From NCBI RefSeq assembly GCF_014192285.1, contig NZ_JACHXQ010000001.1, positions 558,001 to 622,000 on the forward strand: a DNA stretch of 64,000 nucleotides, written 5' to 3'. The DNA comes from Halomonas fontilapidosi. Its GTDB lineage: Bacteria > Pseudomonadota > Gammaproteobacteria > Pseudomonadales > Halomonadaceae. The notes beneath the pieces are model-generated. The model was not told where the DNA came from. It searched no databases and saw only the letters and a list, made by a program, of their open reading frames with translations. The translations under genes and the position numbers were made by a program. The stretch's first letter is position 1; the number at the start of each line of letters is the position of its first letter. Shown here one piece after another: positions 20,984 to 36,835 of this stretch.

Positions 20984-21068
<85 letters not shown>

Positions 21069-21130
21069 GGTTCGCCCCGAGCCTGCATGAGTCCTAACTC
21101 CTTGAGTCAGAAAGGCTTACAGCCGTGGAA

Positions 21131-21143
21131 GGTGTCACACTTC
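21131..21143 (+). repeat. Terminal 13-mer GGTGTCACACTTC, left copy
   Basis: Identical to 25903-25915 in direct orientation, each about 65-95 bases inside an att site. This position suits integrase arm-type binding sites (inference). Confidence 0.55.
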
Positions 21144-21165
21144 GGTGCGACATTTGGAGTCTCCC

Positions 21166-21337
21166 ATGGCCTACGGCAGCTACCTGACTCGGAGCCTACA
21201 CCGGACAACCTACTACGCCCGGATCGTGATCCCACTTGATCTGCGACAACAGCTCGCAGGGAAATCTGCGACAACAGCTCGCGGGGAAGCGTGAGGTCAG
21301 GCAAAGCCTCAAAACCACCTGCAAGGCAACAGCCAAG
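21166..21337 (+). pseudogene. Tyrosine-recombinase integrase, N-terminal fragment, frameshifted and IS-truncated
   Basis: ATG 21166 encodes YGSYLTRSLHRTTYYARIVI, then PLDLRQQLAGK, resembling the N-terminal DNA-binding part of phage/island integrases. A 25-base tandem duplication (21241-21265 and 21266-21290, 22/25 identical) shifts the frame and gives a stop soon after. Removing one copy restores DLRQQLAGKREVRQSLKTTC and KATAK. The reading is then cut at 21338 by the end of an IS3-type element. No catalytic domain follows. Adjacent to attL, where an island integrase is expected. Confidence 0.65.
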
Positions 21338-21534
21338 TGAACCGTACCGGCTTTCTCGGAGAACCGTTGGTTTGAGTCAAGCCACCTTCTTGGCCTGGCC
21401 CTATTGTCATAATACTGCGCTTCTCGCTCGGCCGGCGGCATGTTGCCGATCGGCTCCAGGAGCCGTCGATGGTTGAACCAGTCGACCCACTCCAGGGTGG
21501 AGAGTGTAAAGTGACCCGATTGGAGCGGAAGCAA
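21338..21534 (-). mobile_element. IS3-family transposase (OrfB) C-terminal remnant
   Basis: Minus-strand translation contains TLEWVDWFNHRRLLEPIGNM followed by PPAEREAQYYDN, the conserved C-terminus of IS3-group OrfB integrase-type transposases. The terminus TGAACCGTACCGGCTTTCTC at 21338 looks like the IS end and abuts the integrase fragment. Only the last ~60 residues of the transposase survive; its DDE catalytic region and the other end are missing. Confidence 0.7.
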
Positions 21535-21556
21535 AAGCCTGTGGCAATCTTTGGCA

Positions 21557-21757
21557 ATGAGCTCTAAAAATTTAGCTGCTTCAGAAGCTAAACACTACAC
21601 GAGAAGGCATCACTCTCGACTCGGCGAATTTTCTATAACAAAGGAAAAAGCATGCCACACTGCGAGGAACGAATTATTAAAAATAATCGATTACATTGAT
21701 AGAGAAAGCTTCAAGACCGGCCTTACGGATAATGGGCATAACAAGTTATTTAAATAA
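21557..21757 (+). CDS. Small hypothetical protein (island, AT-rich)
   Basis: 66 codons, about 40% GC, highly charged (KNLAASEAKHYTRRHHSRLG, ending IDYIDRESFKTGLTDNGHNK). No ribosome site before the ATG and it starts close to the IS3 remnant, so it may be the tail of a gene cut by that insertion. No function recognised. Confidence 0.3.
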   Translation: MSSKNLAASEAKHYTRRHHSRLGEFSITKEKACHTARNELLKIIDYIDRESFKTGLTDNGHNKLFK

Positions 21758-21761
21758 GTAA

Positions 21762-21983
21762 AAATCAATTTTTATAAAAATTGCGCAAAGCCCATATTTT
21801 AATATTCTGAGCGGCCTGGTTCTTCTTGCCACTGCCGGCTACGAGACATGGGCAAACATTGAAGAAGTGTCTATAGGTACTCACCATGGCATCTTGATTT
21901 TCATCATTGTTCATCTCTTAAAAACAATACCCAAGTTTGTGCAAGGCCTAAAGGACGTGAATGAGTCAAAGAAAACACACTAA
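21762..21983 (+). pseudogene. Small membrane protein lacking a normal start codon
   Basis: A frame open from 21762 encodes KIAQSPYFNILSGLVLLATA, then GYETWANIEEVSIGTHHGIL, IFIIVHLLKTIPK and a charged tail ending at TAA 21981. Two hydrophobic segments around a His-His turn and clean reading to the stop look like a genuine small inner-membrane protein. There is no ATG, GTG or TTG before the first hydrophobic segment (only ATT codons, and CTG at 21807). It is either 5'-truncated or uses a rare start. Confidence 0.4.
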
Positions 21984-22081
21984 ATCTATACCTGAATATA
22001 CAAAATCGACATATTGAAAATCTCGCAAAACATTTAGCTATAAAGCAATATTATCTCATCATCGTTGAGTGTGGAATTCTC

Positions 22082-22535
22082 GTAAGCGCTCCACGAACCC
22101 CATCTGTTGCGGCCTGAGTTAGACCGGTAGAGCGTCTTTCCAGCGCCAGGGGAACAGCGCGTCGAGATCGTCATGCTAGCCGAGTATCGGCAGGGTTTCG
22201 AACACGAATTGCAGATCGTCGTAGGGTGACAGGCCGTTGCCCTTGGCCGTCTCCATCAGGCTGTAGATTGCCGCGCTGCCGTGGGCGCCGCTCGGTGTGT
22301 GGCTGAACAGCCAGTTCTTGCGGCCTACCACAAAGGGTCTGATGGCATTCTCGGCCGGGTTGTTGTCCAGCGTAATCCGGCCATCATCGAGGAAACATCT
22401 CAGGCGTTGCCACTGACCATCCAAGTAGTGCAGCGCCTTACCCAGCGCGCTTTTCTGCAGCACCTGGTTGGCTGATTTTTCGAGCCAGGTGCGCAGTTGG
22501 GTGATCAGCGGGCGGGTCTGAAGAGCGGGCCAGCA
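22082..22535 (-). mobile_element. IS66-family remnant (TnpC C-terminus, nonsense codon)
   Basis: The minus strand encodes LITQLRTWLEKSANQVLQKS, ALGKALHYLDGQWQRLRCFL, DDGRITLDNNPAENAIRPF and VGRKNWLFSHTPSGAHGSAA, the C-terminal catalytic block of IS66 TnpC with its DDE-type Glu in NPAENAIRP. A TAG at 22176-22178 interrupts the frame; reading through gives HDDLDALFPWRWKDALPV and the natural stop at 22119. GTAAGCG at 22082 matches IS66 terminal repeats. The N-terminal part, tnpA and tnpB are gone. Confidence 0.8.
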
Positions 22536-22552
22536 CTAACCCCAGTCCGCTT

Positions 22553-24175
22553 TTACTGGGTTACCGCCAGCCTTATCTGTTGGAAAGAATCACGCTCGCT
22601 CTCCGGAGCGGTTTCCAGCAGCCGGCGGGACCAGAGCTCGGCAGCGTCGCCATCACCAGCAGCTTCCGCCGCGCGGACGGCGCCCTCGAGGGTGTTATAG
22701 CGTTGCGGCCAGGTTCGATTGGAGTTGTCGTAAGCGGCCAAGGCCTCCGCCGAACGATCAAGAGACACCAGCAGGTCCCCGAGTGCCTCGTAAGGAGGGA
22801 GCAACGATCCCGGTGTAACCGGATGTTTTTCGGCGGTGGCCTCTAGCTCTCCAGCGGAGCGCAACAGCGCTATAGCATCTTCAGGCCTGCCCTCGGCTTT
22901 CGCAATCCAGCCGGAAAGAATGCGGCGGTCCACTTCGATATAGGTTGAGAAACGCGGATCTGCGGCAGAACCGGCATCCCTCACCAGGGATACCAACTGC
23001 TGTTCCGCTTCACGGGCGGCGGCCAAGTTGTCGGTATGGACGGCGCCCAGCCCCCGCGCAAACCAGCTCAAGCCAGTCGGCCAGGGAAATTGCTGCCAGC
23101 GGATATAGTCGGGATCGCCGAGCGTAAGGGTTGCTGCCGTTTCCCAATCTCGTGTTTCGACAGCCAGCCTTGCCGGCATGGAGGCCAGATGGAAAGCTCC
23201 GGGGAAATTCGCCTGATGCGGCCCATTCGCCTGGGCAGTTGCCCACACGTCCCTAGCCGCACTGTCCTCACCACGCTGGAGGTGGCCATAGACCTGATAG
23301 TCAAGCGCGTGGACGTAATGAAAGGATTTCGCACCATCAGCCACGTGATTCACCGCCACCTCGGCGGACCGTTGGTTCCACTCGATCACCCGAGCCCAGT
23401 CGCCAAGCCGGACATAGATATGTGAAGGCATATGAAGCGCATGGGGCACACTGGGGGCAATCGCGCCATAGGATTCCACAACCTCAGTCGCATCCCCCGC
23501 CCGGCCATCCGCATCGGTGGCGTGGATGCTGTAATGGACTGCCCCAGGGTGTCTGGATTCGTTTTCCCAGACCCTGCGAAGGACCTGCTCAGCCTCGTTG
23601 AGTAGGGCACTGCGATCATCGGCGGACAGTGCGAGTGTCAGGCGCGACAACGCATAAAGCGAAGCGACGTCAGAATCCTCTGGAAAGGCCTGATACGCCT
23701 CACTCATGCCGTTAATCCAGCCCGCCAGGCGCACCTGCACCTGGTCGGTCTCGGGAGCAAAGAAAGCTGCGGTAGCCTCAACCAGCTGCCGCTCACGTGG
23801 GTCTTCGACAGCGTCCAGCGCTTTCTGGATGCTCCGCCGACCGAGGGTGATATCCCCTTCGCTCGGCGTGGTAGCCCATAACGGCTGGAACAGGGTTGTC
23901 GCTACGCCCCAATGGCCCATGGCGCAGCCGGGATTGGCGCGGACCACGGCTTCGAACTCCGCTCGCGCTCGGGCATACATCATATGATGCATCATCCCTA
24001 ACGCATGGTCGACGTCAGCGCGAACAGCATCGTCACAGTTAGCCTGGAAGTCGATGGTGCCGATGTCGTTTCTGGCACTGAGCGCAGGGTCATCTTGACT
24101 GGTTTCTTCCAAGGCAATCGCAGGAATAGCAACACCAAGAGAGGCGGCAAGCAAGACAAGACGGAATGTTTTCAT
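22553..24175 (-). CDS. Periplasmic tetratricopeptide-repeat protein
   Basis: 540 aa with a signal peptide (MKTFRLVLLAASLGVAIPAIA). Helical repeats of TPR type run through it: MMYARARAEFEAVVRANPGC near residue 85, AAREAEQQLVSLVRDAG, and PPYEALGDLLVSLDRSAEAL AAYDN near the end. It carries many Trp and His residues (HALGMMHHMM, FHYVHALDYQVYGHL), suggesting ligand or metal contacts, but no enzyme motif is evident. The start at 24175 has GGAG upstream; the frame also opens to 24226. Its base composition is closer to the chromosome than the rest of the island. Function unknown. Confidence 0.8.
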   Translation of the reverse strand: MKTFRLVLLAASLGVAIPAIALEETSQDDPALSARNDIGTIDFQANCDDAVRADVDHALGMMHHMMYARARAEFEAVVRANPGCAMGHWGVATTLFQPLWATTPSEGDITLGRRSIQKALDAVEDPRERQLVEATAAFFAPETDQVQVRLAGWINGMSEAYQAFPEDSDVASLYALSRLTLALSADDRSALLNEAEQVLRRVWENESRHPGAVHYSIHATDADGRAGDATEVVESYGAIAPSVPHALHMPSHIYVRLGDWARVIEWNQRSAEVAVNHVADGAKSFHYVHALDYQVYGHLQRGEDSAARDVWATAQANGPHQANFPGAFHLASMPARLAVETRDWETAATLTLGDPDYIRWQQFPWPTGLSWFARGLGAVHTDNLAAAREAEQQLVSLVRDAGSAADPRFSTYIEVDRRILSGWIAKAEGRPEDAIALLRSAGELEATAEKHPVTPGSLLPPYEALGDLLVSLDRSAEALAAYDNSNRTWPQRYNTLEGAVRAAEAAGDGDAAELWSRRLLETAPESERDSFQQIRLAVTQ

Positions 24176-24475
24176 GACAGGACTCCAGTGAAACCCGATT
24201 GCGGGCGGAGCCGGCATGTCATACATCGATCAGGAACTGGGAACACGCTACCAGAAACTGGTCCAGCATGCGCAGCTTATAACAACAATGGTAGTCCGTT
24301 GTGGGTTGCTTAGCCAGCACCTTTCTTGCTCAATTTATCCGCCAGCTCAGAAAAATAAAGTCGAGAGACTGCATACTCGCGACCGTTATGGTCCTTGCCT
24401 TTAGTGGCAGGACGATGGCAGGAATTCGCGTATGACACTAGGGATCGATGGAGTTGACCTGAATCCATTATCAAG
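24176..24475. other. Intergenic region, no gene seen
   Basis: Promoter-side spacer of the TPR gene and downstream side of the small secreted gene. Short frames here have no ribosome site or coding character. Confidence 0.5.
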
Positions 24476-24503
24476 AAAAACCACGGCTCTAGATGAGTCG
24501 TGG
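24476..24503 (-). terminator. Terminator of the small secreted protein gene
   Basis: Minus strand: a nine-bp stem (CCACGACTC with GAGCCGTGG, one G-T pair), five-base loop, then TTTTT (AAAAA at 24476-24480 on plus). Confidence 0.75.
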
Positions 24504-24568
24504 AAGTGACGAAAATTCTTCACACCAGGCATTCTTTTCTAGATAAAGGAATTACCCGATGCATAGTG

Positions 24569-24805
24569 TCAGTGCCACCAGGGATCGGGTGTCACGACGG
24601 TAGCCGGAGTTGTTCGAGTTGCCGGTATGACCATTGTTCCCAGTTGCGCCCTTGTCGGTGTTGACGTCTTTATCATGGTGGACATCACTGCCTTTTCATG
24701 GAGACGTTTCATGCGCTCTTCCAGATACACCGAGTCTTCCGCCATCACAGTAGGGGCGAACAGCAGTGTGATGACCAAGGCTGATGCGTATGCCGTGAGT
24801 TTCAT
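24569..24805 (-). CDS. Small secreted protein of unknown function
   Basis: 78 aa. Signal peptide MKLTAYASALVITLLFAPTV-MAEDS with likely cleavage after MA, then a charged helix (YLEERMKRLHEKAVM) and a Thr/Pro-rich tail ending PDPWWH. GAGG lies eight bases before the ATG and a rho-independent terminator follows, so the unit looks complete. No cysteines. I do not recognise a family. Confidence 0.6.
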   Translation of the reverse strand: MKLTAYASALVITLLFAPTVMAEDSVYLEERMKRLHEKAVMSTMIKTSTPTRAQLGTMVIPATRTTPATVVTPDPWWH

Positions 24806-25287
24806 GTTGATTACCTCGCAAGGGTATCGAGGGTGCGTATATGGTCGACAGCAGACTCTTGATGCCGAATGACGCCCCGATACCGTGATGAGCCCTACGG
24901 CGCTGAGTCACGCAGGAGCAGCACAGCATTTTCTGTGAGCAGGTGCTTGGATGGTCCCTCGGCGCGATAACCGAAGGCGGATGCTCGAGTCCCCGATGCG
25001 GTGTTGCACGTTGCGAAAATCGCCGTGCCATCAGCCTGAGGCATCTCGGTGAGGACATTGGAATGACTTGGGCAAGTCACATTTGCTCATCAGAACAATA
25101 AGCGCATGGTCAATGTCGTGGGTCTCGTATTTGTCGCCAGGGAGCGTCTTGCTTAGGCATGTTTACTATAGTGCACTTCGAGATAAACATTTCATTTCTG
25201 TGCGAGATTTTTTTTCACGTCATGGGAGTTATTGGTGATTTTATAACATAAAAGATTGTCGAATATTAGGGCTCTCCGTCGCTGGGT
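24806..25287. other. Intergenic region in island, mostly non-coding
   Basis: Contains an uncertain 61-codon minus frame (24895-25080, GTG start, no ribosome site). The right part (25180-25260) is AT-rich, with promoter-like sequence but no clear pair of boxes. Nothing else supported. Confidence 0.4.
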
Positions 25288-25704
25288 GTGGAATTCGCCC
25301 CCTGCACTGGGCCAGGATATGACCTCCACGACGCTCGGAGGCATGGCATGGAAGGCACCCTGGTCTGCCCTAGTCTGGTGCTGGAAGAGCCCGGTATTCT
25401 CAATAAGCAGCACTTGGATACTTTCCACCTGGCGGACTGGCATGCATTAGAGCCAATTCTTGAGAGCAACGTGCCCTTCCTCCTTGCGGCTGGCGACATT
25501 GCGCTGCCCACCATTGCGGACCTGGGTGATGGTGGCCTTGGTGAAACCTTAGGCGTCAAGCAAGGAATAGATGAACTCATCGCTGTCGGCGTCTGGACGT
25601 GTCGCAACGGTAAGGGTGTCCATGCTGTAGGACTGATCGAAGGCCATGCGGGGCGTGCTCCCTGCGTGCAGGCTTTGGCTGAGCCCGTCATTCGTTATTC
25701 TTAG
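25288..25704 (+). CDS. Unidentified open frame in island (doubtful)
   Basis: 138 codons, e.g. HLDTFHLADWHALEPILESN and DIALPTIADLGDGGLGETLG. The composition is protein-like, but there is no ribosome site and two frames on the opposite strand also stay open for similar lengths. It could be the antisense of a decayed gene. No homology recognised. Confidence 0.22.
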   Translation: MEFAPCTGPGYDLHDARRHGMEGTLVCPSLVLEEPGILNKQHLDTFHLADWHALEPILESNVPFLLAAGDIALPTIADLGDGGLGETLGVKQGIDELIAVGVWTCRNGKGVHAVGLIEGHAGRAPCVQALAEPVIRYS

Positions 25705-25902
25705 AGACTACTCACGCAAACAGGGGATGTCACTCGAGCGGAGCGCTGGAGGCCGGGGGCAGTCGGCTATTTTGTCAAACAGGTATCTCAGATGGCGAGC
25801 GCTTCCCAATAACGCTGTAAACTAGCTAAGGGGGAACAAGGTTACACCTTGCTGTCTCGCTCACGCCTCGCTAGGATAACCGCACCAACCCACTCACTGT
25901 TG

Positions 25903-25915
25903 GGTGTCACACTTC
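25903..25915 (+). repeat. Terminal 13-mer GGTGTCACACTTC, right copy
   Basis: Direct repeat of 21131-21143; see the left copy. Confidence 0.55.
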
Positions 25916-25988
25916 CACACAGATGGTTAGCGAACGCTAACCATCAAGGCTATGATTCATGGGAATTTGTGGTGCCGGTTGGCGTAGT

Positions 25989-26014
25989 GAGTTCCCCTCT
26001 CCCCATCCGCACCA
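25989..26014 (+). other. attR: duplicated tRNA-Leu end
   Basis: GAGTTC-CCC-TCTCCCCATCCGCACCA: 23 of 26 bases match the tRNA-Leu 3' end (21043-21068) in the same orientation, without a tRNA gene around it. Confidence 0.8.
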
Positions 26015-26118
26015 TCTGTTCTCCCTGTTGTCGACGCGCTCCCGTCCGTCATCCCCCGAGATGCGCGGCGCCTTCGCGTGCCCATCGTACCGCTTTCACG
26101 CTGCCACGGAGTTCTCTC

Positions 26119-27402
26119 ATGACCGCTCCCCTCTCCTCTCCCGTCTGGCACCCCTATGCCCATCTCAAGACCCAGCGCCAAGCGCCCAAGGTGGTCGGCG
26201 GCGAGGGGCCGCGCTTTACCCTGGAGGGCGGCGAGACGCTGCTCGACGCCACCTGCTCCTGGTGGTGCATGATCCACGGCTACGCGCACCCGCGGCTGGT
26301 GGCGGCGATCCGCGAGCAGGCCGGCGAACTCTGCCACGTGATGCTCGGCGGCCTGACCCACGAGCCCGCCGACCGCCTCGCCCGGGAGCTGGTGCGCGTC
26401 ACGCCCGAGGGGCTCAATCACGTCTTCTACTCCGACAGCGGCTCGGTGGGCATGGAAGTCGCCATGAAGATGGCCGTGCAATACCACCAGCTGCACGGCA
26501 AGCCGGGCAAGCACCGCCTGATGTCGCTGATGAAGGCCTACCACGGCGATACCGCCGGCTGCATGGCAGTCTGCGATCCGGAAGAGGGCATGCACTCGCT
26601 GTTTGCCGGCTACCTGCCCCGCCACCCCTTCGCGCCGGCCCCCACCGCGCCCTTCGATGCCGAGCCCGACGCCGTGGCGGCGGACCTGGCTGCGCTGCGC
26701 GAGGTTCTGGAACGCCATCACCACGAGGTCGCCGCCCTGCTGATGGAGCCGCTGCTGCAGGCCGCCGGCGGACTCAACATGACCTCGCCCCACTATCTCA
26801 AGGGAGCGCGCGAGCTGTGCGACGAATTCGACGTGCTGCTGGTCTTCGACGAGGTGGCCACCGGTTTCGGCCGCACCGGGCGGATGTTCGCCGCCGACCA
26901 TGCCGATGTCACGCCCGACATCATGGTGCTCTCCAAGGGGCTTACCGGCGGCTATCTCGGCCACGCGGCGACGCTGGCCACCGACCGGGTCCATGATGCC
27001 TTCGTCGGCGACACTCCCGAGCACGCCTTCATGCATGGCCCCACCTTCATGGGCAACCCGCTGGCCTGTCGTGTGGCGCTGGAGAGCCTGGCCGTCTTCG
27101 AGGAAGAGGACTATCCGGGCAAGATCCACGGGCTCAACCGGGTGCTGCGCGAGACGCTGCTGGATGACGAGGCGCTGGCCGCACACCCCGCCGTTGCCGA
27201 CGTGCGAGTGCTGGGCGCCACTGCAGTGATCGAGACCCATGACGCAGCCGTCCTGGCCGGCGTCGGCGACTGGGCCCGCGAACAGGGCGTCTGGCTGCGT
27301 CCCATCGGCCGCTGGCTGTATACCATGCCCGCCTACATCACCGCCGAGCGCGACATGCGCCACATCACGACGGTGATGAAGGAGTGGTTCCTGGCGCGGT
27401 GA
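26119..27402 (+). CDS. bioA: Adenosylmethionine-8-amino-7-oxononanoate aminotransferase
   Basis: PLP enzyme turning KAPA into DAPA with SAM as amino donor; the step between BioF and BioD. 427 aa, class III aminotransferase: VWHPYAHLKTQRQAPKVVGG start, DATCSWWCMIHGYAHPRL, FYSDSGSVGMEVAMKMAVQY, KAYHGDTAGCMAVCDPEEGM, LLVFDEVATGFGRTGRMFA, and the PLP Lys in MVLSKGLTGGYLG. GGAG precedes ATG 26119. It lies outside the bioBFHCD operon because the tRNA-borne island was inserted between. Confidence 0.96.
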   Translation: MTAPLSSPVWHPYAHLKTQRQAPKVVGGEGPRFTLEGGETLLDATCSWWCMIHGYAHPRLVAAIREQAGELCHVMLGGLTHEPADRLARELVRVTPEGLNHVFYSDSGSVGMEVAMKMAVQYHQLHGKPGKHRLMSLMKAYHGDTAGCMAVCDPEEGMHSLFAGYLPRHPFAPAPTAPFDAEPDAVAADLAALREVLERHHHEVAALLMEPLLQAAGGLNMTSPHYLKGARELCDEFDVLLVFDEVATGFGRTGRMFAADHADVTPDIMVLSKGLTGGYLGHAATLATDRVHDAFVGDTPEHAFMHGPTFMGNPLACRVALESLAVFEEEDYPGKIHGLNRVLRETLLDDEALAAHPAVADVRVLGATAVIETHDAAVLAGVGDWAREQGVWLRPIGRWLYTMPAYITAERDMRHITTVMKEWFLAR

Positions 27403-27413
27403 CTGTCCCGGGG

Positions 27414-29438
27414 CTAGACCAGCCGGCGCGGAATAGTGAGATCCCAGCTGCGGCAGTGAACGCGCCGTTCGCCCTCGTAGGCATCCAGCGTGGCGTGCAA
27501 CTCGAAGGCCACGGCGGTCGACGTCAGCACGGTGCGGGTTACCGTGCTCACCTCCCAGTCCCCCCGCTTCAACGAGCGTTCCCAGAGCGTGGTAGCCTTC
27601 AGGGAGTCGAAATCGTCGTCTCGCGACTGATAGGTCTCCACCGCGCGTGTTGCCACCTCCAGCTCGCTGTCCTCCAGACGAATCCGGCCGTTGTCGTTGA
27701 TCACCTCCAGCGTCGAGAGATCCTCGGCGAGGTCACGATGCACATACCAGTTGTGATGCCCCGTCTCGAGTGTCGTCGCCGGGATGGTCGGCGCGGCCTC
27801 GGGCTCGGCAAATTCAGCCAGACGATCATCCTCGTCGCGCGGCGGGCGCTGCGGCAGATGCAGCGCACTGCCCTTGTCGAAGATCGTCAGTCGCACCCGC
27901 TCGGGCGGCGCCCACGCCAGCGGCCAGTAGGACGTGGAAAGCGAGAGCCTGAGTCGGTGACCCCGCGGGAACACCTGAGCGACGTCGTTGCACTTGACGC
28001 GGACCCGGTAGCGACGCCCCGGCTCCAGGGCGCTAGGGGTCTCGTTGCTGTCACGATGCGTCAGATTGAGCAGGCCATAGGTCACGCGGGTGGCCTTGTC
28101 GTCTGGCGCCACGTCGGAAAGCCGGACCGCCAGCATCGCCACGGGACGGTCGGCGGAAAGCTCCAGCTCCACTTCCGGCGCGCCCATTATTTCGAGGGCC
28201 TCGTCCAGCGGCGGCGTTTCGAAGGTCAGGGCGCCCCCATCCTCTTCTCGCTGGTCATGGGCCAGATCGGGGCCTGCCGCATAGGAGCACCATTTACCGG
28301 CAAACAGGCCGCAGGTCAGCGGCGACTGCAGGGTGAGGGCGGTTTCCTCCCGGCGCCGCTGGCCATCCAACGCCAACCTGCCTGGCGCCAGCGACAGGCG
28401 CCAATAGGAAACGTTGGGCGAAGGCCAACTCGGCTCAGCCACCCAGCGCCCCGGCCGACAGCCATAGCGAGTGGTCGGCGGCATACTGTCCTGCATCCAG
28501 ACCCGAACGGCGGGATCCTGCTCCAGGCCGCGGTCTATGCCCTTCAGGCATTGGTCCCACCAGCGCAGGCACTCCTGCAGGAAACCGATGGCCGGCCCCG
28601 GCTCGCCAAGATGGGGATACTTGTGGCTCCAGGGCCCGATCAACCCCTTGCAGTGCTCGGGCAGATTCTCCACCAGCCGCTTGACGGCGTTGGAATAGCC
28701 GTCCGCCCAGCCGCTGACGGCCAGTATCGGCACCTCGACGCGGGAAAAGTCCTCGCAGATGGAACCGTGCTGCCAGTAGGCGTCACGGTGTTGGTGCTCG
28801 AGCCAGGTGGCAAGCCATAGGCCGCTCCCTTCGAGCCGCTGGTGCCACATCTCTCGCCAGGCATCACCGACCACGCTGGGATCCGGCGGCAGCGAATTGT
28901 AGGCGAACATGGTGGAGGCCCAGGAGAGATTGTCGCCCAGCAGGCAGCCGCCCATGTAGTGGACATCGTCCGCATAGCGGTCGTCGGTGGAACAGACGCT
29001 GATCACCGCGCCGAGTTCCGGTGGGCGCCGATAGGCCAGCTGCAGGCCATTGAAGCCGCCCCAGGAAATGCCGATCATGCCCACCTTGCCGGCACACCAG
29101 GGCTGAGCGGCGATCCAGCGCAGGATCGCCTCGCCGTCGAGCAGTTCCTGTTCCAGGTATTCGTCGGTGAGTACGCCGCCGGAGTCCCCGCTGCCACGAA
29201 TATCCACCCGCAGCGAGGCGTAGCCATGCCCGGCAAAGTAATGGTGGTGCATGGCGTCCCGCCGCGCGGAGCCATCGCGCAGGCGGTAGGGGATATATTC
29301 CAGAATGGCGGGCACCGGTGCCTCTTCGGCGCCTTCCGGCAGCCACAGGCGGGCACAAAGTTCGATGCCGTCGTCCATGGGAATCCAGACGGGATCCCGG
29401 CACTCGACCGGGTAGGGAAAGTCGGTCACGACATGCAT
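27414..29438 (-). CDS. CocE/NonD family hydrolase (peptidase S15-like)
   Basis: 674 aa, likely cytoplasmic (no signal peptide). N-terminal alpha/beta hydrolase: IPMDDGIELCARLWLPEGA, RVDIRGSGDSGG, nucleophile elbow GMIGISWGGFNGLQ (Ser about 133), acid in VSGWADGYSNAV, His in GPWSHKYPH. The C-terminal ~300 residues are the jelly-roll domain of X-Pro dipeptidyl peptidase/cocaine-esterase proteins (VTYGLLNLTHRDS, FPRGHRLRLSLSTSYWP). An AAGGAGG site precedes the ATG. Directly downstream of the ATP-grasp gene (30-base gap), so co-transcribed. It probably cleaves an amide or ester; substrate unknown. Confidence 0.9.
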   Translation of the reverse strand: MHVVTDFPYPVECRDPVWIPMDDGIELCARLWLPEGAEEAPVPAILEYIPYRLRDGSARRDAMHHHYFAGHGYASLRVDIRGSGDSGGVLTDEYLEQELLDGEAILRWIAAQPWCAGKVGMIGISWGGFNGLQLAYRRPPELGAVISVCSTDDRYADDVHYMGGCLLGDNLSWASTMFAYNSLPPDPSVVGDAWREMWHQRLEGSGLWLATWLEHQHRDAYWQHGSICEDFSRVEVPILAVSGWADGYSNAVKRLVENLPEHCKGLIGPWSHKYPHLGEPGPAIGFLQECLRWWDQCLKGIDRGLEQDPAVRVWMQDSMPPTTRYGCRPGRWVAEPSWPSPNVSYWRLSLAPGRLALDGQRRREETALTLQSPLTCGLFAGKWCSYAAGPDLAHDQREEDGGALTFETPPLDEALEIMGAPEVELELSADRPVAMLAVRLSDVAPDDKATRVTYGLLNLTHRDSNETPSALEPGRRYRVRVKCNDVAQVFPRGHRLRLSLSTSYWPLAWAPPERVRLTIFDKGSALHLPQRPPRDEDDRLAEFAEPEAAPTIPATTLETGHHNWYVHRDLAEDLSTLEVINDNGRIRLEDSELEVATRAVETYQSRDDDFDSLKATTLWERSLKRGDWEVSTVTRTVLTSTAVAFELHATLDAYEGERRVHCRSWDLTIPRRLV

Positions 29439-29468
29439 GACACGGTCCTCCTTGAATAACGCAATGGC

Positions 29469-30773
29469 TCAGTGGGACTCCTGCTCGGTTAGGGGGTCGA
29501 TCTCGAAGGGCAGCATCCGCCGACACGCCTCGATCCGCTCGATCAGCGCCTCGCGGTTCTCGGCCCCGGTAAACAGCACGCCCAGTTCGAAGGAGAAGGA
29601 GTCCTGGTGCTGAAGCTCCGAGAGCTGCATGCCCTCTTTCACGTTGAGATGCACCAGGGTCCCCGGGAACCGCTCCTCGACCTCGCGGATCTCCTCTTGC
29701 GAGGGCACGCGACGCACCCAGCCATCCTCGAAGACGCGCAACATCTGCTTGGCAGCAATGGCGTAATCGCCTTCGCGGTGTGGCATGCGCGGGGCAATGC
29801 CCAGCGCCGTGTCGACCATTACCTGCATGTGCGGCGCGCCGTCGACCAGCTGAAATATCGCCGCATGCGAGCGAGAGATGCGCGAATTGATCTCGAGCAG
29901 CCACAGACGGTCATTCTCCTCATCGAGGAAGTACTCGATGTTGAACGGTCCATCGTCGTAGCCGATATGCGACAGAAAGCGGCGAGTGTTCGACAGTATC
30001 CGCTCCTGCAAGGCGTCGGGCAGCGTGGAAGGATATTCGTAACGCAGCAGCACGGAGGCGTGCGTCTCGTCCCTCAAGCTGTCGATGATCCCCTCGGCAT
30101 GTACTTCGCCGTTCTGAACATACCCCTCCAGGGTACATTGGCGACCGGCAGAGATGATCGCCTCGGCGATACAGTGATGGCCTGAAATAGCGGCCACTTC
30201 CTCGGGAAGCTCGGCCAGGGCCATCACCTCGTCGAACGGCTCGCCGAAACGGCCGATGCCGCCGCGAATCGTCGGCAGCGCCTCGCGGAGCTGGTCGGCG
30301 TTCTCGATCAGGAAGCCGAGATGAGAGGAGTGGGCCTTTATCGGCTTGATCCAGAACGGATAGTCGATCTCGACAGAATCGACGGCCCGCTCATCAAAGG
30401 GGTCGATGGCCTGGAAGGCCGGCACACACGCCGGGATCACTTTCGCCTGCTCCAGGCGGCTCCAGTACTTGTGCTCACACTTGAGAAACGCCTCGAGCGA
30501 CGGGCCGGGCAGGCCGTATTCCCGGCGCAGGACCGGCAGCAGGCCGCTGGTCGGAAAATCCCAGTACCCGACGATGGCATCCACCGACCCGGGAAAGCGC
30601 TCGAGCTGAGCCAGGGCAGTCGCGACGAGACGTTCGAAGGGGTATTCATCGGCATGCACCACCTCCTCGAAGGATAATAACTCGTGGAAGGCATAGTCCT
30701 CGCGGTGGCGCAGGTGCGGCAGCATCTGCCTGCTCAGCTCATCCTGGCCGATGATAAAGACATTCCAGCTCAT
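29469..30773 (-). CDS. ATP-grasp domain protein A
   Basis: 434 aa. N-terminal Rossmann-like part (SWNVFIIGQDELSRQML, VDAIVGYWDFPTSGLLP, PGPSLEAFLKCEHKYWSRLE), ATP-binding Lys in DYPFWIKPIKAHSSHLGF, and the C-terminal Mg/ATP motif FNIEYFLDEENDRLWLLEIN with NSRIS (about 300). This is the layout of carboxylate-amine ligases, which activate an acid as acyl phosphate and join it to an amine. Substrate cannot be inferred. First gene of a two-gene minus-strand operon with the hydrolase; a perfect FNR/Anr site lies about 104 bases upstream. Confidence 0.85.
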   Translation of the reverse strand: MSWNVFIIGQDELSRQMLPHLRHREDYAFHELLSFEEVVHADEYPFERLVATALAQLERFPGSVDAIVGYWDFPTSGLLPVLRREYGLPGPSLEAFLKCEHKYWSRLEQAKVIPACVPAFQAIDPFDERAVDSVEIDYPFWIKPIKAHSSHLGFLIENADQLREALPTIRGGIGRFGEPFDEVMALAELPEEVAAISGHHCIAEAIISAGRQCTLEGYVQNGEVHAEGIIDSLRDETHASVLLRYEYPSTLPDALQERILSNTRRFLSHIGYDDGPFNIEYFLDEENDRLWLLEINSRISRSHAAIFQLVDGAPHMQVMVDTALGIAPRMPHREGDYAIAAKQMLRVFEDGWVRRVPSQEEIREVEERFPGTLVHLNVKEGMQLSELQHQDSFSFELGVLFTGAENREALIERIEACRRMLPFEIDPLTEQESH

Positions 30774-30876
30774 GCGATTTCCTCCGACATGCTCGTCTCC
30801 TCAGTGTGGACCATACAGCCCCCAACCGTGGCGACTTGGACGACCTTTCAGCATGTCAATGTTCCGCCGTCATGAC

Positions 30877-30890
30877 TTGATATCGATCAA
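30877..30890. promoter_or_regulatory. FNR/Anr box between divergent genes
   Basis: TTGAT-ATCG-ATCAA, a perfect match to the FNR/Anr consensus, between ATP-grasp A (minus) and the outer-membrane protein (plus), 104 and 112 bases from their starts. Suggests oxygen-responsive control of one or both directions. Confidence 0.65.
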
Positions 30891-31001
30891 GGAGTCACGA
30901 GCCAAAGGGAGACAGCGGGAGGGCCGCAAGGCACGAGACGATGGTGCCAAGGATGGCGAAGCCGGTAAACTGCCCGACAAACAGGGCCAAGAGACGCAGA
31001 G

Positions 31002-31994
31002 ATGAAGGGATTGCGAACACTGTTAGCCATATCGCTGGCCACCCTCGGCCTGGCTGCCCATGCCAATCCCCCGGAGGTCGACGACAGCGATTTGCCAGCG
31101 TGGGCCGAAAAACAGCTAGGACCCTTCCATGCCCGTGTCTCGCGCTGGGTGGAGAGCACCTCGCGCCGCATCGACGGCTTCTTCGGAACCACCGATGCAC
31201 TGAGCGTGGACACCGACTCCTACTTGCGCCTCAGCCAGGAGTGGGACTGGCGGGAAGGTGAGCCCTTCGACCAGGACCTGGGCGCGCGTTTCCGCCTCGA
31301 CCTGCCCACCACCGAGGAGCGCCTGAGACTGATCATCGAGAGCGAACCCGACGAGACCCGCGGCACCTTGTCGGAGCGAGAGTCGGCGCTCAGCGATGAT
31401 CCCGCCAATAGCCTGGGCGACCTGCTGGTGGGCTTGAACCGCCTCGGCGACAAGGACAAGACGCGCCACTGGAACACGCGCGTTGGTGCCGGTATCAAGC
31501 TGCGCCTGCCGCTCGAGCCCTACGTGCGGCTAACCAGTCAACGGCTCTGGACCCTGCAGGAGGGCCCCTGGCAGTTGCACAGCGACAACCGCCTGTCCTG
31601 GTTCAACGGCGACGGCTACTCTGCCCGCACCCGCTGGGACCTGGGCAGGCCACTCGACGAGCAGCGTCACCTGCGCTTTCTCACCAACGTCCAGTGGCGC
31701 GAAACGGTCGACCACCTCGAGTTCAGCCAGGTCGTGGAGCTCAACCACCGCCTCAACCGCCGCAGCGTACTGCGCACCTCGGGCGGGGTGATCGGCGAGA
31801 GTGGATCCAACCCCGCCATCGAGGACAGCTATCTCGAGGTTCGGTTTCGTCGAGACATTCACAAGGGCTTCACGTTCCTGGACGTTGCCCCTTCTCTGCA
31901 CTTTCCCCGCGACGCCGGCCGCGACCCGCGCTGGGCACTGACCCTGCGTCTGGAAATGTATTTCCGCCGCCACATCGACCGCGTCAGCCTGTAA
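31002..31994 (+). CDS. Putative outer-membrane beta-barrel protein
   Basis: 330 aa. Signal peptide MKGLRTLLAISLATLGLAAHA. Mature part is built of alternating strands with regular Arg/Asp/Trp/Tyr pattern (GARFRLDLPTTEERLRLIIE, VGAGIKLRLPLEPYVRLTSQ, SARTRWDLGRPLD, RWALTLRLEMYFRRHIDRVS), and a final strand with an aromatic near the end, typical of outer-membrane barrels. No recognised family. The ATG follows a weak GAGACGCAGAG. Downstream are the HTH and lipoprotein genes, in the same direction. Confidence 0.7.
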   Translation: MKGLRTLLAISLATLGLAAHANPPEVDDSDLPAWAEKQLGPFHARVSRWVESTSRRIDGFFGTTDALSVDTDSYLRLSQEWDWREGEPFDQDLGARFRLDLPTTEERLRLIIESEPDETRGTLSERESALSDDPANSLGDLLVGLNRLGDKDKTRHWNTRVGAGIKLRLPLEPYVRLTSQRLWTLQEGPWQLHSDNRLSWFNGDGYSARTRWDLGRPLDEQRHLRFLTNVQWRETVDHLEFSQVVELNHRLNRRSVLRTSGGVIGESGSNPAIEDSYLEVRFRRDIHKGFTFLDVAPSLHFPRDAGRDPRWALTLRLEMYFRRHIDRVSL

Positions 31995-32011
31995 CGCGAA
32001 GGAGCCCTCGC

Positions 32012-32314
32012 ATGCCCCTGAGCAAGACCCGTTCGAGCTTCTACCGCCGCCTCTATGTGGCGCATCTGGTGGCGACCGGTACTGCCAGCGTGCCGGCCAT
32101 CACCGCGGCCACCGGCATGCCCCGGCGCACCGCTCAGGATACGCTGGGCGCGCTGGACGAGCTGGATATCCGCTGCGAGTTCGAGCCGACCCCCGGCGAG
32201 CGTCACAATATCGGCGCCTTCGTGATCCGCGACTGGGGACCGATCGATCCGGCCTGGGTAGCAGCGCATGCCGAGCGGCTGCGAGACGCCCTGGGCTACC
32301 CACCCCGAAGATGA
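32012..32314 (+). CDS. Small winged helix-turn-helix protein
   Basis: 100 aa, AAGGAG seven bases before the ATG. The N-terminal helices FYRRLYVAHLVATGTASVPA, then ITAATGMPRRTAQDTLGALD, form a winged HTH; the C-terminal half (HNIGAFVIRDWGPIDPAWVA) is shared by a small family usually encoded beside an alpha/beta hydrolase in pseudomonads. Stop overlaps the hydrolase start by four bases (ATGA). Probably a local transcription regulator. Confidence 0.8.
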   Translation: MPLSKTRSSFYRRLYVAHLVATGTASVPAITAATGMPRRTAQDTLGALDELDIRCEFEPTPGERHNIGAFVIRDWGPIDPAWVAAHAERLRDALGYPPRR

Positions 32315-33339
32315 GCCATGCGGTGAGACGACGCCTTATCCGTCAACTGACGTGGCTGGGCCTCCTGCTGCTGTTGACCGGATGCGGCTGGGGCGACTGG
32401 CGCCAGATTCCGGCATCCGGCAATGATACGACACGGCTGGCGGATGGCGGGATCATTGCCGATGACGGCTACCGATTACCCCTTCATCACTGGCCAGCCA
32501 AGGGCGACCCACAGGCCATCGTGCTCGGGGTACACGGTTTCAACGAACACGGTGGCACCTTCAAGCGCCTCGCCGACGACCTGGCACCCCAAGGCATTAC
32601 CCTCTATGCCCACGACCAGCGCGGCTTCGGCACCACCGCCCAGCGCGGCCTCTGGCCAGGCCACGAGCGGCTGGCCGCCGACGTCACCCTGCTCGCCGAG
32701 CGGCTGAGCGCGCGCCATCCGCAAATCCCGCTTTACCTGGTCGGCCACAGCATGGGCGGCGCGGTGACAATCCTCGCCCTGAGCGGTGAGAACCCGCCGC
32801 CCGTGGATGGCAGCGTGCTGATCTCACCCGCGGTGTGGGGCTTCGAGGCCATGCCCTGGTACCAGCGTCTGGGTTTGTGGCTCGGCGTGCGCCTTTTCCC
32901 CGCCTTGAGCGTCTCCTCGGACATCGTCCAGCGCTTCGGCATCGAGCCCACCGATGATCCCGCCGTCAGGCGCCGGTTGGCAAACGACCCGCTGATCCTT
33001 CGCCGCGCGCGCATTGACACCCTGCACGGCGTAAGCCTGGCCATGGAGGCGGGCCTGGAGGCCACCCGACGACTGCCGGCTCCGTCACTGATCCTGTATG
33101 GCAGCGAGGACCACATCATCCCACCGGAAGCGATCTGTGCCCTGCTCGCACGACTGCCCGAGAAGGAGGGCTTTCGCCTGGCGCTCTACCCTCAGGGCTA
33201 CCACATGCTGACCCGCTATACGAAACGCGAGCGCACCGTGGCCGATATCGCCGCCTGGCTGCTTGACCCCGACACTCCCCTGCCTTCGGAGCATGAGCTA
33301 AATCATCGGCAGGCTCGCCGGACCCTCTGCGATACATAA
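32311..33339 (+). CDS. Lipoprotein alpha/beta hydrolase (monoacylglycerol lipase-like)
   Basis: 342 aa. Lipobox LLLLLTGCGWGD places it as a membrane-anchored lipoprotein. Hydrolase features: VLGVHGFNEHGGTF, HDQRGFGTTAQRG, nucleophile elbow LVGHSMGGAVTIL (Ser about 150), acid in ILYGSEDHIIPPEA and His in LYPQGYHMLTRY. Resembles the serine aminopeptidase S33/monoacylglycerol lipase group. Translationally coupled to the HTH gene. Confidence 0.88.
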   Translation: MSHAVRRRLIRQLTWLGLLLLLTGCGWGDWRQIPASGNDTTRLADGGIIADDGYRLPLHHWPAKGDPQAIVLGVHGFNEHGGTFKRLADDLAPQGITLYAHDQRGFGTTAQRGLWPGHERLAADVTLLAERLSARHPQIPLYLVGHSMGGAVTILALSGENPPPVDGSVLISPAVWGFEAMPWYQRLGLWLGVRLFPALSVSSDIVQRFGIEPTDDPAVRRRLANDPLILRRARIDTLHGVSLAMEAGLEATRRLPAPSLILYGSEDHIIPPEAICALLARLPEKEGFRLALYPQGYHMLTRYTKRERTVADIAAWLLDPDTPLPSEHELNHRQARRTLCDT

Positions 33340-33343
33340 CGCC

Positions 33344-33372
33344 CTGCTCAACGTTTACTAAACGTTGAGCAG
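33344..33372. terminator. Perfect 13-bp hairpin after the lipoprotein gene
   Basis: CTGCTCAACGTTT-ACT-AAACGTTGAGCAG. Sits five bases after the stop, so probably a terminator, but there is no T tract; it could instead act as an operator or RNA stabiliser for the following gene. Confidence 0.5.
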
Positions 33373-33411
33373 CCCGCCGTTTACGGCCAGGTGCCTTCGG
33401 GAGGGATTGAC

Positions 33412-35442
33412 ATGTCACGAGCTAAGCCGGACTGTGAATCAATGAGCAAAGAGACAAATGACGCCTGCCCCGACGACAGCGGCACCATAGGCGAGCTAGC
33501 GCAGCAGCTCGATGCCGCCATCGAACGCCTTGCCATCGAGAATGCCGTTGCCGAGGTCTCCCCGGTCTTCGACGTCATTGATGCGGCACGCCCCTTGATG
33601 TTCGATGAAAGAGGGCTGGAAGCCCTCTATGCGCGCGTGCCCGCCATCGAGGCCGCAGGTTTCTTCGGTGGCAGCGACTGGGATTATCCCCAGACTCTGG
33701 TGCCCTCGCTGGCGGTGCGGACCGCGCGCCACGGGGACCCGATCGCCGCGCTGGTCGAAAGCCTGAGCCAGATCCGCCTGCTGGCCGTCGCCAAGGGCGA
33801 TTATTCCCATCCCTCCGTCTCGGCAGAACATGCCCATCACTTTCTCGCCCAGGTGATGGCCATGAATCTCGACATCGTGGTCGGCGACCTGCAGGAGGGC
33901 GATCGCCTGAGGCCAGACGGGCTCGGCTACGCCGTCCAGGCCCTGTATCGCTATCTGCTGAAGCACCTGGGCTACCAGAACCTGCTGGAGCACCTGGTGG
34001 CAGAGGTCTGGCGCATCCTGGCGCAACGCCCTGTCCAGGTCGACGGCGTCAAGCAGATGGTGACCCAGATTGCCACCTGCCTGCCCGGTCTGGAAGACCA
34101 GCCGGATGCCACGGTCGGCGAGGCGGGCGCAGACGCCATGCGGCTGATCAACGCCGTGTTCAGTCCCACCGAAGGTTGCCGAGAGGATCCCGGTTTCGAG
34201 GTATATGCCGAGCGCCTGGCCGGCATGGATGACGCGGCCCTGCTTCGGGAGTCCATTGACTTTGCTCAGGCCATGCACAGTACGGGGCTGGTCTCGCCTT
34301 ACATGCCGGGCTTCATACGCTACCTGCGCACCCGCTGGAACGAACTGATCCCGACGGCACTCGGCCTGAGCCATACGGGAGCCGACGCCTTTCACTGTTA
34401 TCCGGCGTTGATTCACACCCTCATCGATGAAGCCCTGTTTGCCGAAACCAGCCAGGCCGCCTACGGGCTCGCCATGATGCTGGAGAGAGGGATTCTCTAT
34501 CCGCCTCCGATGGCCCCATCGTTATGGCGGCAGTTACGGCTGACGCTGTGCGATGCTGCGGCAGAGAAGATCGCGGCTGTCTTCGGAGACCGTCGCTCGC
34601 CGGAATGCTTTCTGCTCGCCGACGTTATCAATGTCCTCGGCCGCCCGCTGGGCGTGGGTCAGGGGAACTATCCTACCTGCCAGTCGACACGGGCGTTGTC
34701 GATGTGGGCTTTCAACACCCCGGCCGACCTGTTGCGGATCGTCGCCTGGGCGGCGCGCGACGACGAGATCGTCATGCGCTTCGAGGGCCACAACATTTCG
34801 TCTCGCGAGCTTGGGGCGGGCCTGGCAACCGAGCCACCCGTGGACGTTGATGCCGTCTCCCTGATCACCGTCCCGCACCTCGATCGCATCTACTTCGAGA
34901 TGGGACGCCGCAGCGTCGGGCGCGGCGAGGATCCCCACAAGTGGGTCAACGCCGAGTTCCATGGCGATCAGGTGGGTCACGGTTTTCGCATTGCCGTCGA
35001 TGTGTTTACCGGCAATCTGAAGGATTTCGAGGGCTTTATCCGCGACTTTTACGCGGCTTACCATCCCTTCTATAATGGCAATATTCCCGTCATCAATCCG
35101 CAGCCAGCGGGTATTGCCGTGACCGATAGCGCGTCGCGCTTTCTCGGCTGGCATGCGATCACGATCCAGCGCCTGGCACTCGACCAAGACAAGGTCATGC
35201 GCGTTTACTTTTTCAACCCCAACAACGACAGTGGTCAGGATTGGGGGCAGGAAATTATCACCTCGACACAAGGCAATGGCGAACTCTACGGGGAGGCATC
35301 GCTCCCGGTGGCCCAGTTCGCATCACGGCTTTACGTCTTTCACTATGACCCGCTCGAAAAGGGCGAGCCAAACGATGTTCCGACCAATGAAGTGAGTCAG
35401 GCCATGAGCCTGGCGCGTAAGAGCTGGGCATCGGGACGCTAG
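33412..35442 (+). CDS. Uncharacterised protein with papain-like Cys/His/Asn pattern
   Basis: 676 aa, not recognised. The N-terminal ~400 residues are mostly helical. The C-terminal part shows GNYPTCQSTRALSMWAF (Cys about 423, start of a helix), SRFLGWHAITIQRLAL (His about 581) and VYFFNPNNDSGQDWG (Asn about 602-605), the order and surroundings expected of a papain-like cysteine peptidase or transglutaminase-like fold. No signal peptide. GGGAGGG lies upstream of ATG 33412; a second Met follows at 33442. It is 85 bases ahead of ATP-grasp B on the same strand and probably works with it. The enzymatic reading is inference. Confidence 0.7.
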   Translation: MSRAKPDCESMSKETNDACPDDSGTIGELAQQLDAAIERLAIENAVAEVSPVFDVIDAARPLMFDERGLEALYARVPAIEAAGFFGGSDWDYPQTLVPSLAVRTARHGDPIAALVESLSQIRLLAVAKGDYSHPSVSAEHAHHFLAQVMAMNLDIVVGDLQEGDRLRPDGLGYAVQALYRYLLKHLGYQNLLEHLVAEVWRILAQRPVQVDGVKQMVTQIATCLPGLEDQPDATVGEAGADAMRLINAVFSPTEGCREDPGFEVYAERLAGMDDAALLRESIDFAQAMHSTGLVSPYMPGFIRYLRTRWNELIPTALGLSHTGADAFHCYPALIHTLIDEALFAETSQAAYGLAMMLERGILYPPPMAPSLWRQLRLTLCDAAAEKIAAVFGDRRSPECFLLADVINVLGRPLGVGQGNYPTCQSTRALSMWAFNTPADLLRIVAWAARDDEIVMRFEGHNISSRELGAGLATEPPVDVDAVSLITVPHLDRIYFEMGRRSVGRGEDPHKWVNAEFHGDQVGHGFRIAVDVFTGNLKDFEGFIRDFYAAYHPFYNGNIPVINPQPAGIAVTDSASRFLGWHAITIQRLALDQDKVMRVYFFNPNNDSGQDWGQEIITSTQGNGELYGEASLPVAQFASRLYVFHYDPLEKGEPNDVPTNEVSQAMSLARKSWASGR

Positions 35443-35527
35443 TCCAACGCTGCCTGGCAGTTGGGATAGGCAAGACCGCTGGAAATCGAGCATCAATTTC
35501 CTGCTTAATGCAGAAGGAGAGCATCGC

Positions 35528-36835
35528 ATGTCGACTGTATCAGAAGCCCCGGACTCCAAGGACGTTTCGAGCTGGACTGACCCGACACTGGACTCGGTCA
35601 AGGGGACTGAAACGCCCAAGGATCCCAACAAGGGCTATATCGCGCTGCTGGGCTGGAGTATCAATGCCATCAAGGCCGCGCAGAAGTTTGACCGTCGTTA
35701 CGTGGTCGTAGCGCCCGACTGGGCCGCCGATTTCTGCGAGGCCAATCATATCCCCTACATTCCATGGGATTTCGTGCGCCTGAATGATCGATCCATGGAA
35801 ATTGCGGAGCGGCTCAAGGAGGAAGGCGTCGATGTCGCCATCCCGCTGTTCGAGGAAACCGTCGAATGGTCGGGTGCGATCAACTCCGTGCTTCTGGATA
35901 ACCCCCGCATGTACGGGCAGTCCATTCTGTTCCGCGACAAGGCGCTCATGAAGCGCCGCGCTCAGCTCGGCGGTATCCGTGTGGGCATCTTCGAAGAGGC
36001 CCACGAGAAAGACGACATCATTCGCTTCATGAAACGCGTCAATCAGACGCTGCTCAAGCTCGACGGCGACCCGGATGACCCGATCCACGTCAAGGCCTTC
36101 GACAAGGCCGGCTGTCTCGGGCATCGCATGATCCGCAAGCTGGAAGAGATCGACAACATACCCGACGAAGAATATCCCTTGCTGATGGAAAGTCACCTTG
36201 ATGGCTGGGAATTTGCCGTCGAGGCCTGGATCCATGATGGCAAGATCAAGTTCCTCAACATCTCCGAATACGTGACCCTGGGCTATTCGGTCTTCGTCCC
36301 GGCGACACGGGAACTCGAAAGCTGGCGAGATGCCATCACCAAGCAGATCGAGAAGCTGATCAAGACGTTCGATATCCAGTTCGGCCTGATTCACCCCGAG
36401 TACTTCGTGGCCTCCGACGGCGAGATGTACTTCGGGGAAGTCGCCTACCGGCCTCCCGGCTTCAAGGCCTTCGAACTCATAGAACGCGCCTACGGGTTCA
36501 GCGCCTATCAGGCTTCCATGCTGGTCTTCGACCCCAAGAGCACTAAGGAGGAGGTCGAGGCCTTCTTCCCGCGCGAGGTGGTCGATGCGAAAGGCTACGC
36601 GGGTTGCTTCGGCGTGTACCCACGGCGCCGTGTCGTCAGCAAGCTGGAAATGCCCAAGGAAACCACCGAGCATCCCTACTTCGAGTCTCACGAGCTGGTA
36701 GCGCCAGCGGAAGAGACGGTGCCGGACCGCTCGGCATTCGGTACACACTGGGGCCTCATCTTCTTCTTCGGTGACGACCCCATCACGATGCGGGACCTGC
36801 TCAAGGCTCAGGAGGACCTGGACTTCTACGTCTGA
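35528..36835 (+). CDS. ATP-grasp domain protein B
   Basis: 435 aa. After a ~35-residue Ser/Asp-rich N-tail, ALLGWSINAIKAAQKFDRRY starts the pre-ATP-grasp domain; HVKAFDKAGCLGHRMI is the ATP-lysine strand; YPLLMESHLDGWEFAVEAWI follows; and MYFGEVAYRPPGFKAFELIE is the metal motif in the E-x-x-x-R-P-P-G form used by several amino-acid ligases. Ends with HWGLIFFFGDDPITMRDLLK. AAGGAG precedes the ATG. Distinct in sequence from ATP-grasp A. Likely makes an amide or peptide bond; substrate unknown. Confidence 0.85.
   Translation: MSTVSEAPDSKDVSSWTDPTLDSVKGTETPKDPNKGYIALLGWSINAIKAAQKFDRRYVVVAPDWAADFCEANHIPYIPWDFVRLNDRSMEIAERLKEEGVDVAIPLFEETVEWSGAINSVLLDNPRMYGQSILFRDKALMKRRAQLGGIRVGIFEEAHEKDDIIRFMKRVNQTLLKLDGDPDDPIHVKAFDKAGCLGHRMIRKLEEIDNIPDEEYPLLMESHLDGWEFAVEAWIHDGKIKFLNISEYVTLGYSVFVPATRELESWRDAITKQIEKLIKTFDIQFGLIHPEYFVASDGEMYFGEVAYRPPGFKAFELIERAYGFSAYQASMLVFDPKSTKEEVEAFFPREVVDAKGYAGCFGVYPRRRVVSKLEMPKETTEHPYFESHELVAPAEETVPDRSAFGTHWGLIFFFGDDPITMRDLLKAQEDLDFYV

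Follow-up and report, generated by a model that had tools for sequence, protein, structure and literature searches.

Two probable enzyme modules, each with an ATP-grasp protein, side by side in a Halomonas fontilapidosi locus

A group of seven genes in Halomonas fontilapidosi raises the question of whether they serve one pathway or belong to smaller, separate units. The genes occupy positions 27414–36835 of a 64,000-nucleotide stretch (hereafter the window; NCBI RefSeq assembly GCF_014192285.1, contig NZ_JACHXQ010000001.1, positions 558,001 to 622,000 of the forward strand) of a 3.6 Mb genome, and an earlier note on this DNA had read them as a single possible ligase–hydrolase locus with two ATP-grasp enzymes. 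All seven were found to be open reading frames (ORFs), each lying where it had been placed. In our reading, which we consider quite probable, the group consists of two independent two-gene enzyme modules, one of which, formed by the papain-like protein P6 and the ATP-grasp protein AGb, would act as a ligase together with a cut-or-transfer enzyme. The other module comprises a CocE/NonD hydrolase (CocE) and a second ATP-grasp protein (AGa). For both modules, co-presence in genomes, adjacency, intact catalytic residues and folds were observed. The four genes are as follows:

27414–29438, minus strand: CocE/NonD family alpha/beta hydrolase (P0001), with Peptidase_S15 and PepX_C domains (TIGR00976)
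29469–30773, minus strand: AGa (ATP-grasp A), paired with the CocE/NonD hydrolase; identified by Pfam scan and invariant residues
33412–35442 (ATG at 33412), plus strand: P6, a protein of 676 amino acids (aa) with a papain-like C-terminal domain, based on model and residue conservation
35528–36835, plus strand: AGb (ATP-grasp B), a RizA/BL00235-like ligase, based on the ATP-grasp fold of its model

The P6–AGb pair

Co-presence was assessed in family, class and phylum samples (151, 185 and 299 genomes, respectively, some of them shared between samples), with a single P6 sequence as the query in the first two and an alignment in the third. The cut-offs were chosen after the gaps had been seen (for AGb, E < 1e-200, with the next best match at 3.9e-18 in the class and 4.3e-7 in the phylum), and the co-presence counts ignore shared descent. 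In the family sample (E ≤ 1e-60), P6 and AGb were both found in 99 of the 151 genomes and neither in 52, and no genome contained one alone. P6 was present in 5 of the 185 class genomes and AGb (E < 1e-200) in the same five, while 13 other genomes yielded weak ATP-grasp matches, the best being that at 3.9e-18. The phylum sample gave both genes in the same 8 of 299 genomes, including G198 from outside the class, with weak AGb matches in three more. Within each of the genera g178, g320, g321 and g325, some genomes have the two genes and others lack them both; consequently, the pair is not merely one ancient inheritance.

The neighbourhood of P6 was analyzed in the best 80 of at least 438 loci encoding relatives, identified with the P6 alignment against genome contigs, some loci being shortened by contig ends. 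In this set, which extends beyond Halomonas, 40 loci had AGb no more than 1.2 kb from P6, with 12–1188 bases between the aligned parts and three gene orders (P6>AGb> in 21, AGb<P6> in 10 and AGb>P6> in 9). For the 40 loci without AGb inside 3 kb, AGb was detected elsewhere in 35/35 genomes reached, with only partial matches in G495 and G501. Copy numbers were loosely coupled, two genomes carrying four P6 and two AGb genes.

The residue numbers of P6 follow the 683-aa ORF starting at 33391. In its AlphaFold2 model (pLDDT 80.7), a helical N-terminal part extends to approximately residue 420 and a papain-like C-terminal domain covers approximately residues 392–655, the best structural matches of which were calpain and staphopain. 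Residues Q424, C430, H588 and N609 were invariant in 90/90 aligned rows, two of which were the window's own copy. The spacing of six between the oxyanion Gln and Cys is that of papain, and the features common to P6 and papain, calpain and staphopain further include a Cys at the start of a helix (430–442), a His-Ala on a strand (584–597) and an Asn (N609) after the next strand (603–608). Unlike these enzymes, P6 has approximately 390 extra helical residues, a constant ATP-grasp partner and no sequence match in the PDB. The sequence matched nothing in Pfam or NCBIfam either; a profile search of the PDB returned designed helical proteins alone (E 0.04–1.4), and a viral fold library gave no match at E ≤ 0.001, the rows named for the papain family or cathepsin being weak (E 0.1–0.4). 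The N-terminal part matched helical stretches only, and no fold is claimed for it. The label "papain-like" given in the earlier note is borne out by the invariant catalytic set, although no library match supplies it. According to the model, P6 would be a papain-type cysteine enzyme for which peptidase, amidase or transferase activity is predicted.

At least 1794 homologues of P6 were found at E ≤ 0.001. The equivalent of position 33442 is the start in 9 of 13 aligned homologues, so the real start of P6 may lie downstream of that of the 676-aa reading. A tree of the copies from the 80-locus set and the class sample, with low support on some inner branches, contained a window-type clade, a second clade, part of which pairs with window-type AGb in a divergent arrangement, a third clade, mostly of the AGb>P6> order, and one distant member. 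Window-type P6 (82–100% identity) was found in just 5 of the 151 family genomes; most copies there were 51–55% identical and, judging by identity and AGb coordinates, are taken to be of the third type. On contig 1 of G640 (approximately 1718676–1721754), P6 is in pieces and adjoins an AGb gene.

AGb scored 24.4 bits in Pfam, just under the cut-off of 27, yet its model has a clear ATP-grasp fold, which upholds the original call for 35528–36835. Its nearest structures were RizA (4wd3) and BL00235 (3vot), from which it differs by an identity of only 16–20% and by the papain-like partner gene kept in every sampled genome. E291, E304 and R308 were invariant in 41/41 rows, and K138 and K189 were found in 40/41, with one gap; these are presumably the ATP/metal residues. 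The mean frequency of the commonest residue was 0.90–0.93 per segment in AGb (41 rows) versus 0.66–0.80 in P6 (90 rows), and AGb identity was 74% in G198, which belongs to another class, and 77–96% among full-length family matches. On the strength of the model, AGb should be an ATP-grasp ligase of the L-amino acid ligase type, with ligation of free amino acids as its predicted activity.

A third gene as constant as P6 and AGb was not found among the clustered ORFs (≥90–100 aa) of the 80 loci. A protein resembling glutathione S-transferase recurred in 12 of them, an ATP-binding cassette (ABC)/MacB transporter, an AcrB-type pump and an HlyD-type protein in nine each, and an EAL/GGDEF protein in eight; only two of the AcrB-type genes and one of the EAL/GGDEF genes, and none of the others, were within 500 bp of P6. 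These neighbours were not counted as partners because they belong to common families, and they are seldom close to P6. It should be noted that the AcrB-type efflux pump lies 0–6.1 kb from P6 in L013, L014, L018, L041, L063, L065, L067, L072 and L082, several of which are close relatives. In 23 wider loci, the clusters present in at least three (P6, AGb, CocE, AGa and their antisense ORFs being left out) were ABC ATPases (five loci) and, in three loci each, a histone-deacetylase-like protein, an FtsJ/S4 protein and the large protein adjoining the latter; a P6-linked relative of this large protein, scanned from L059, was an MscS-type channel. The scanned neighbours of AGb-less P6 copies included leucyl- and prolyl-tRNA synthetase genes and a branched-chain amino acid transporter.

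The CocE–AGa pair and the remaining genes

CocE is a full member of the CocE/NonD family, with cocaine esterase as the closest PDB sequence (E 1.6e-27), and its PepX_C domain is a jelly-roll domain; what separates it from cocaine esterase and alpha-amino acid ester hydrolase is its ATP-grasp gene partner. Residues S125, D246 and H272, which we take to be the Ser-Asp-His catalytic triad, were invariant in 9/9 sequences, as were E280, E294, N296 and R298 of AGa in 17/17.

At strict cut-offs (AGa, E < 1e-100, with the next match at 9.5e-60; CocE, E < 1e-250 in the class and E < 1e-200 in the family), CocE and AGa were found in the same 8 of 185 class genomes. They were adjacent in seven of these, in two arrangements, and on separate contigs in G121. 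Four class genomes (G005, G051, G060 and G164) had CocE relatives at E ≤ 1e-60 and no close AGa, those of G005 and G164 being 59–61% pieces in incomplete assemblies; in G156, the AGa match was more remote (9.5e-60) and CocE was missing at E ≤ 1e-60. Of the family genomes, 73 contained both genes and 76 neither, the two exceptions (G551 and G649) having AGa and only weaker CocE matches. The best CocE match in a family genome without AGa was 1.3e-196 (46% identity), and CocE relatives at E ≤ 1e-60 were found in 34 of the 76 genomes with neither (44–47% identical where listed). Among the best 50 of 92 listed AGa matches, 48 had CocE within 97 bp.

A second CocE–AGa pair is located on contig 8 of the window's genome. 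Next to it lie a TelA gene and a conserved companion (L163, 9557–11984), as they do next to a lone AGb in G227 (L159, 8539–10820); none of the remaining loci fetched (181 searched, with some overlap) showed this link, which was dropped as family-local, and no paper combining TelA, tellur- and ATP-grasp was found in the literature searched. Two tandem AGa genes adjoin one CocE gene in G146 (L103, 1501–4079; L164). In G124 and G155, D-Ala-D-Ala-ligase-like ATP-grasp proteins with 60% mutual identity adjoin CocE (L165, 9525–10559, and L172, 11621–12637), suggesting that CocE may sometimes be accompanied by a ligase of a third kind.

Three genes outside both pairs lie between them, and a fourth borders the group:

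31002–31994, plus strand: 330-aa protein with a signal-peptide-like start, candidate outer-membrane barrel
32009–32314 (likely ORF), plus strand: HTH_43 winged-helix protein, 101 aa (PF09904, E 3.1e-34)
32311–33339, plus strand: lipoprotein S33 alpha/beta hydrolase (PF12146, E 5.9e-56; LTGC lipobox by eye)
25849–27402, plus strand: bioA (BioA-type aminotransferase), a neighbour outside the locus (TIGR00508, 517 bits versus a cut-off of 405)

The 330-aa protein had no family match in the Pfam, NCBIfam or PADLOC searches. The observation that no housekeeping gene is packed into the group holds for the seven genes themselves, which none interrupts, but bioA borders them directly. Farther upstream, a tRNA-Leu gene (20984–21068) sits in a stretch of approximately 6 kb with lower G+C content (20984–26000 of the window; 0.53–0.60 per 2-kb step versus approximately 0.65), the ORFs of which are without strong families; this stretch could be an insertion beside the tRNA gene.

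Predicted chemistry and rival explanations

AGb would convert a carboxylate to an acyl phosphate and couple this to an amine, yielding a peptide-like amide. P6 would then take the acyl group as a covalent thioester at C430 and either cut the amide, releasing the acyl part to water, or pass this part to another acceptor; the helical half of P6 may serve in partner selection. Both steps are placed in the cytosol because neither protein has an evident signal sequence on inspection by eye; the direction of the reaction, like the chemistry, is a prediction. The suggestion that part of the system works at the envelope found no backing, as nothing tested puts either pair there. Since AGb is nearly constant and P6 is split into subtypes, a single ligation reaction probably supplies several P6 enzymes. 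CocE and AGa would form a second, unrelated pair, in which an ATP-grasp protein stands next to an alpha/beta acyl hydrolase or transferase. More tentatively, P6–AGb may form a hitherto undescribed, self-contained system for amide cycling, found mostly in marine and salt-adapted proteobacteria. The highly conserved ligase would make a peptide-like compound, and the P6 enzymes, differing in the helical half used for recognition, would transfer or release it.

Known systems offer partial parallels. Glutathionylspermidine synthetase/amidase, a make-and-break amide pair, likewise combines an ATP-grasp ligase with a papain-like amidase; however, it is a single fused polypeptide, its ATP-grasp part belongs to another subfamily and its amidase is of the CHAP type, whereas P6 and AGb are two ORFs, apart in all 40 neighbour loci. 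In butirosin synthesis, BtrJ is the ATP-grasp ligase, and BtrJ and BtrH sit in a carrier-protein pathway. The likeness to P6–AGb lies in the combination of ATP-grasp ligation and papain-fold acyl transfer, but no carrier-pathway gene recurs beside P6–AGb among ORFs of at least 90–100 aa, a size limit through which a small carrier protein could have escaped. A 2010 paper presents BtrH as a papain-fold transacylase and predicts that operons for other peptide pathways encode such transacylases and ATP-grasp ligases (PMC2922099). Clusters for graspetides (ATP-grasp ribosomally synthesized and post-translationally modified peptides) have a short precursor peptide gene beside the ligase; for P6–AGb, the clustering showed no recurrent third gene but covered only ORFs of at least 90–100 aa. 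Neither pair was named in the titles and abstracts searched, which covered few subscription journals and did not extend to the amidoligase survey of Iyer et al. (2009), where a mention is possible; no paper in this literature contained both "CocE" and "ATP-grasp". Thus, neither two-gene unit was found described in the literature searched.

That all seven genes make up one pathway for a peptide-like metabolite, partly at the envelope, as the earlier note proposed, appears very improbable. All seven occur together here, several Halomonas loci have the set complete (L003, L005, L007 and L009) or for the most part, and the presence of P6 and AGa is associated within the family (both in 70 genomes, P6 only in 29, AGa only in 5 and neither in 47; odds ratio 23, not corrected for descent). 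However, 34 of the 151 family genomes hold one pair without the other, compared with no discordant genomes for P6 and AGb, and in the class sample both pairs were found in G000 and G171 only. In the 80 loci, tblastn (E ≤ 1e-10) placed CocE–AGa beside P6 seven times, the 330-aa protein seven times, the HTH gene eight times and the lipoprotein hydrolase six times, always in Halomonas records; within this set, the group of seven is thus confined to that genus. Judging from these distributions, the two pairs are read as separate modules that are neighbours here by happenstance, a looser connection between them retaining a residual probability. The co-occurrence of homologues, on which the note had staked its proposal, was found in the neighbourhood survey, in the form of two pairs; its pairing of ligases with hydrolases, its likely amide chemistry and the lack of a named system also stand, and the single locus does not.

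The other rivals concern what P6 and AGb do. It is rather unlikely that they act on proteins or peptides, AGb adding an amino acid or small tag and P6 removing the tag or trimming the target. The large, more variable helical half of P6 could bind proteins, AGb is unusually conserved, and many peptidases and deconjugases are of the papain type (PMC10318531); nevertheless, the nearest structures of AGb are ligases of free amino acids, and no substrate gene of at least 90–100 aa recurs beside the pair. Formation of a non-amide bond by AGb through acyl phosphate chemistry like that of PurK/PurT, with P6 acting on the product, is less probable still, as in the AGb structure search RizA and BL00235 stood at least 3.3 Z units above the best PurK row at a similar root-mean-square deviation. 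A conflict or defence module would fit the patchy presence, several copies per genome and varied chromosomal settings, but it is the least credible alternative: PADLOC (2023 library, E ≤ 0.01) gave no match for any of the seven proteins and PHROGs none for P6, AGb or AGa, P6 was found in 1 of 72,556 plasmid records, and the identity of AGb (74% in G198, 77–96% in the family) is unlike that of fast-evolving defence genes.

The presence of P6 predicted AGb in every sampled genome, for a family of at least 1794 sequences without a Pfam or NCBIfam match. Constant pairing together with intact active sites is about the strongest functional clue that genomes alone can offer, and a function would be supplied for proteins named "hypothetical protein" and "carboxylate--amine ligase" in the sources. 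If the amide-cycling reading is true, the pair would give rise to a metabolite class or a reversible modification without a known counterpart.

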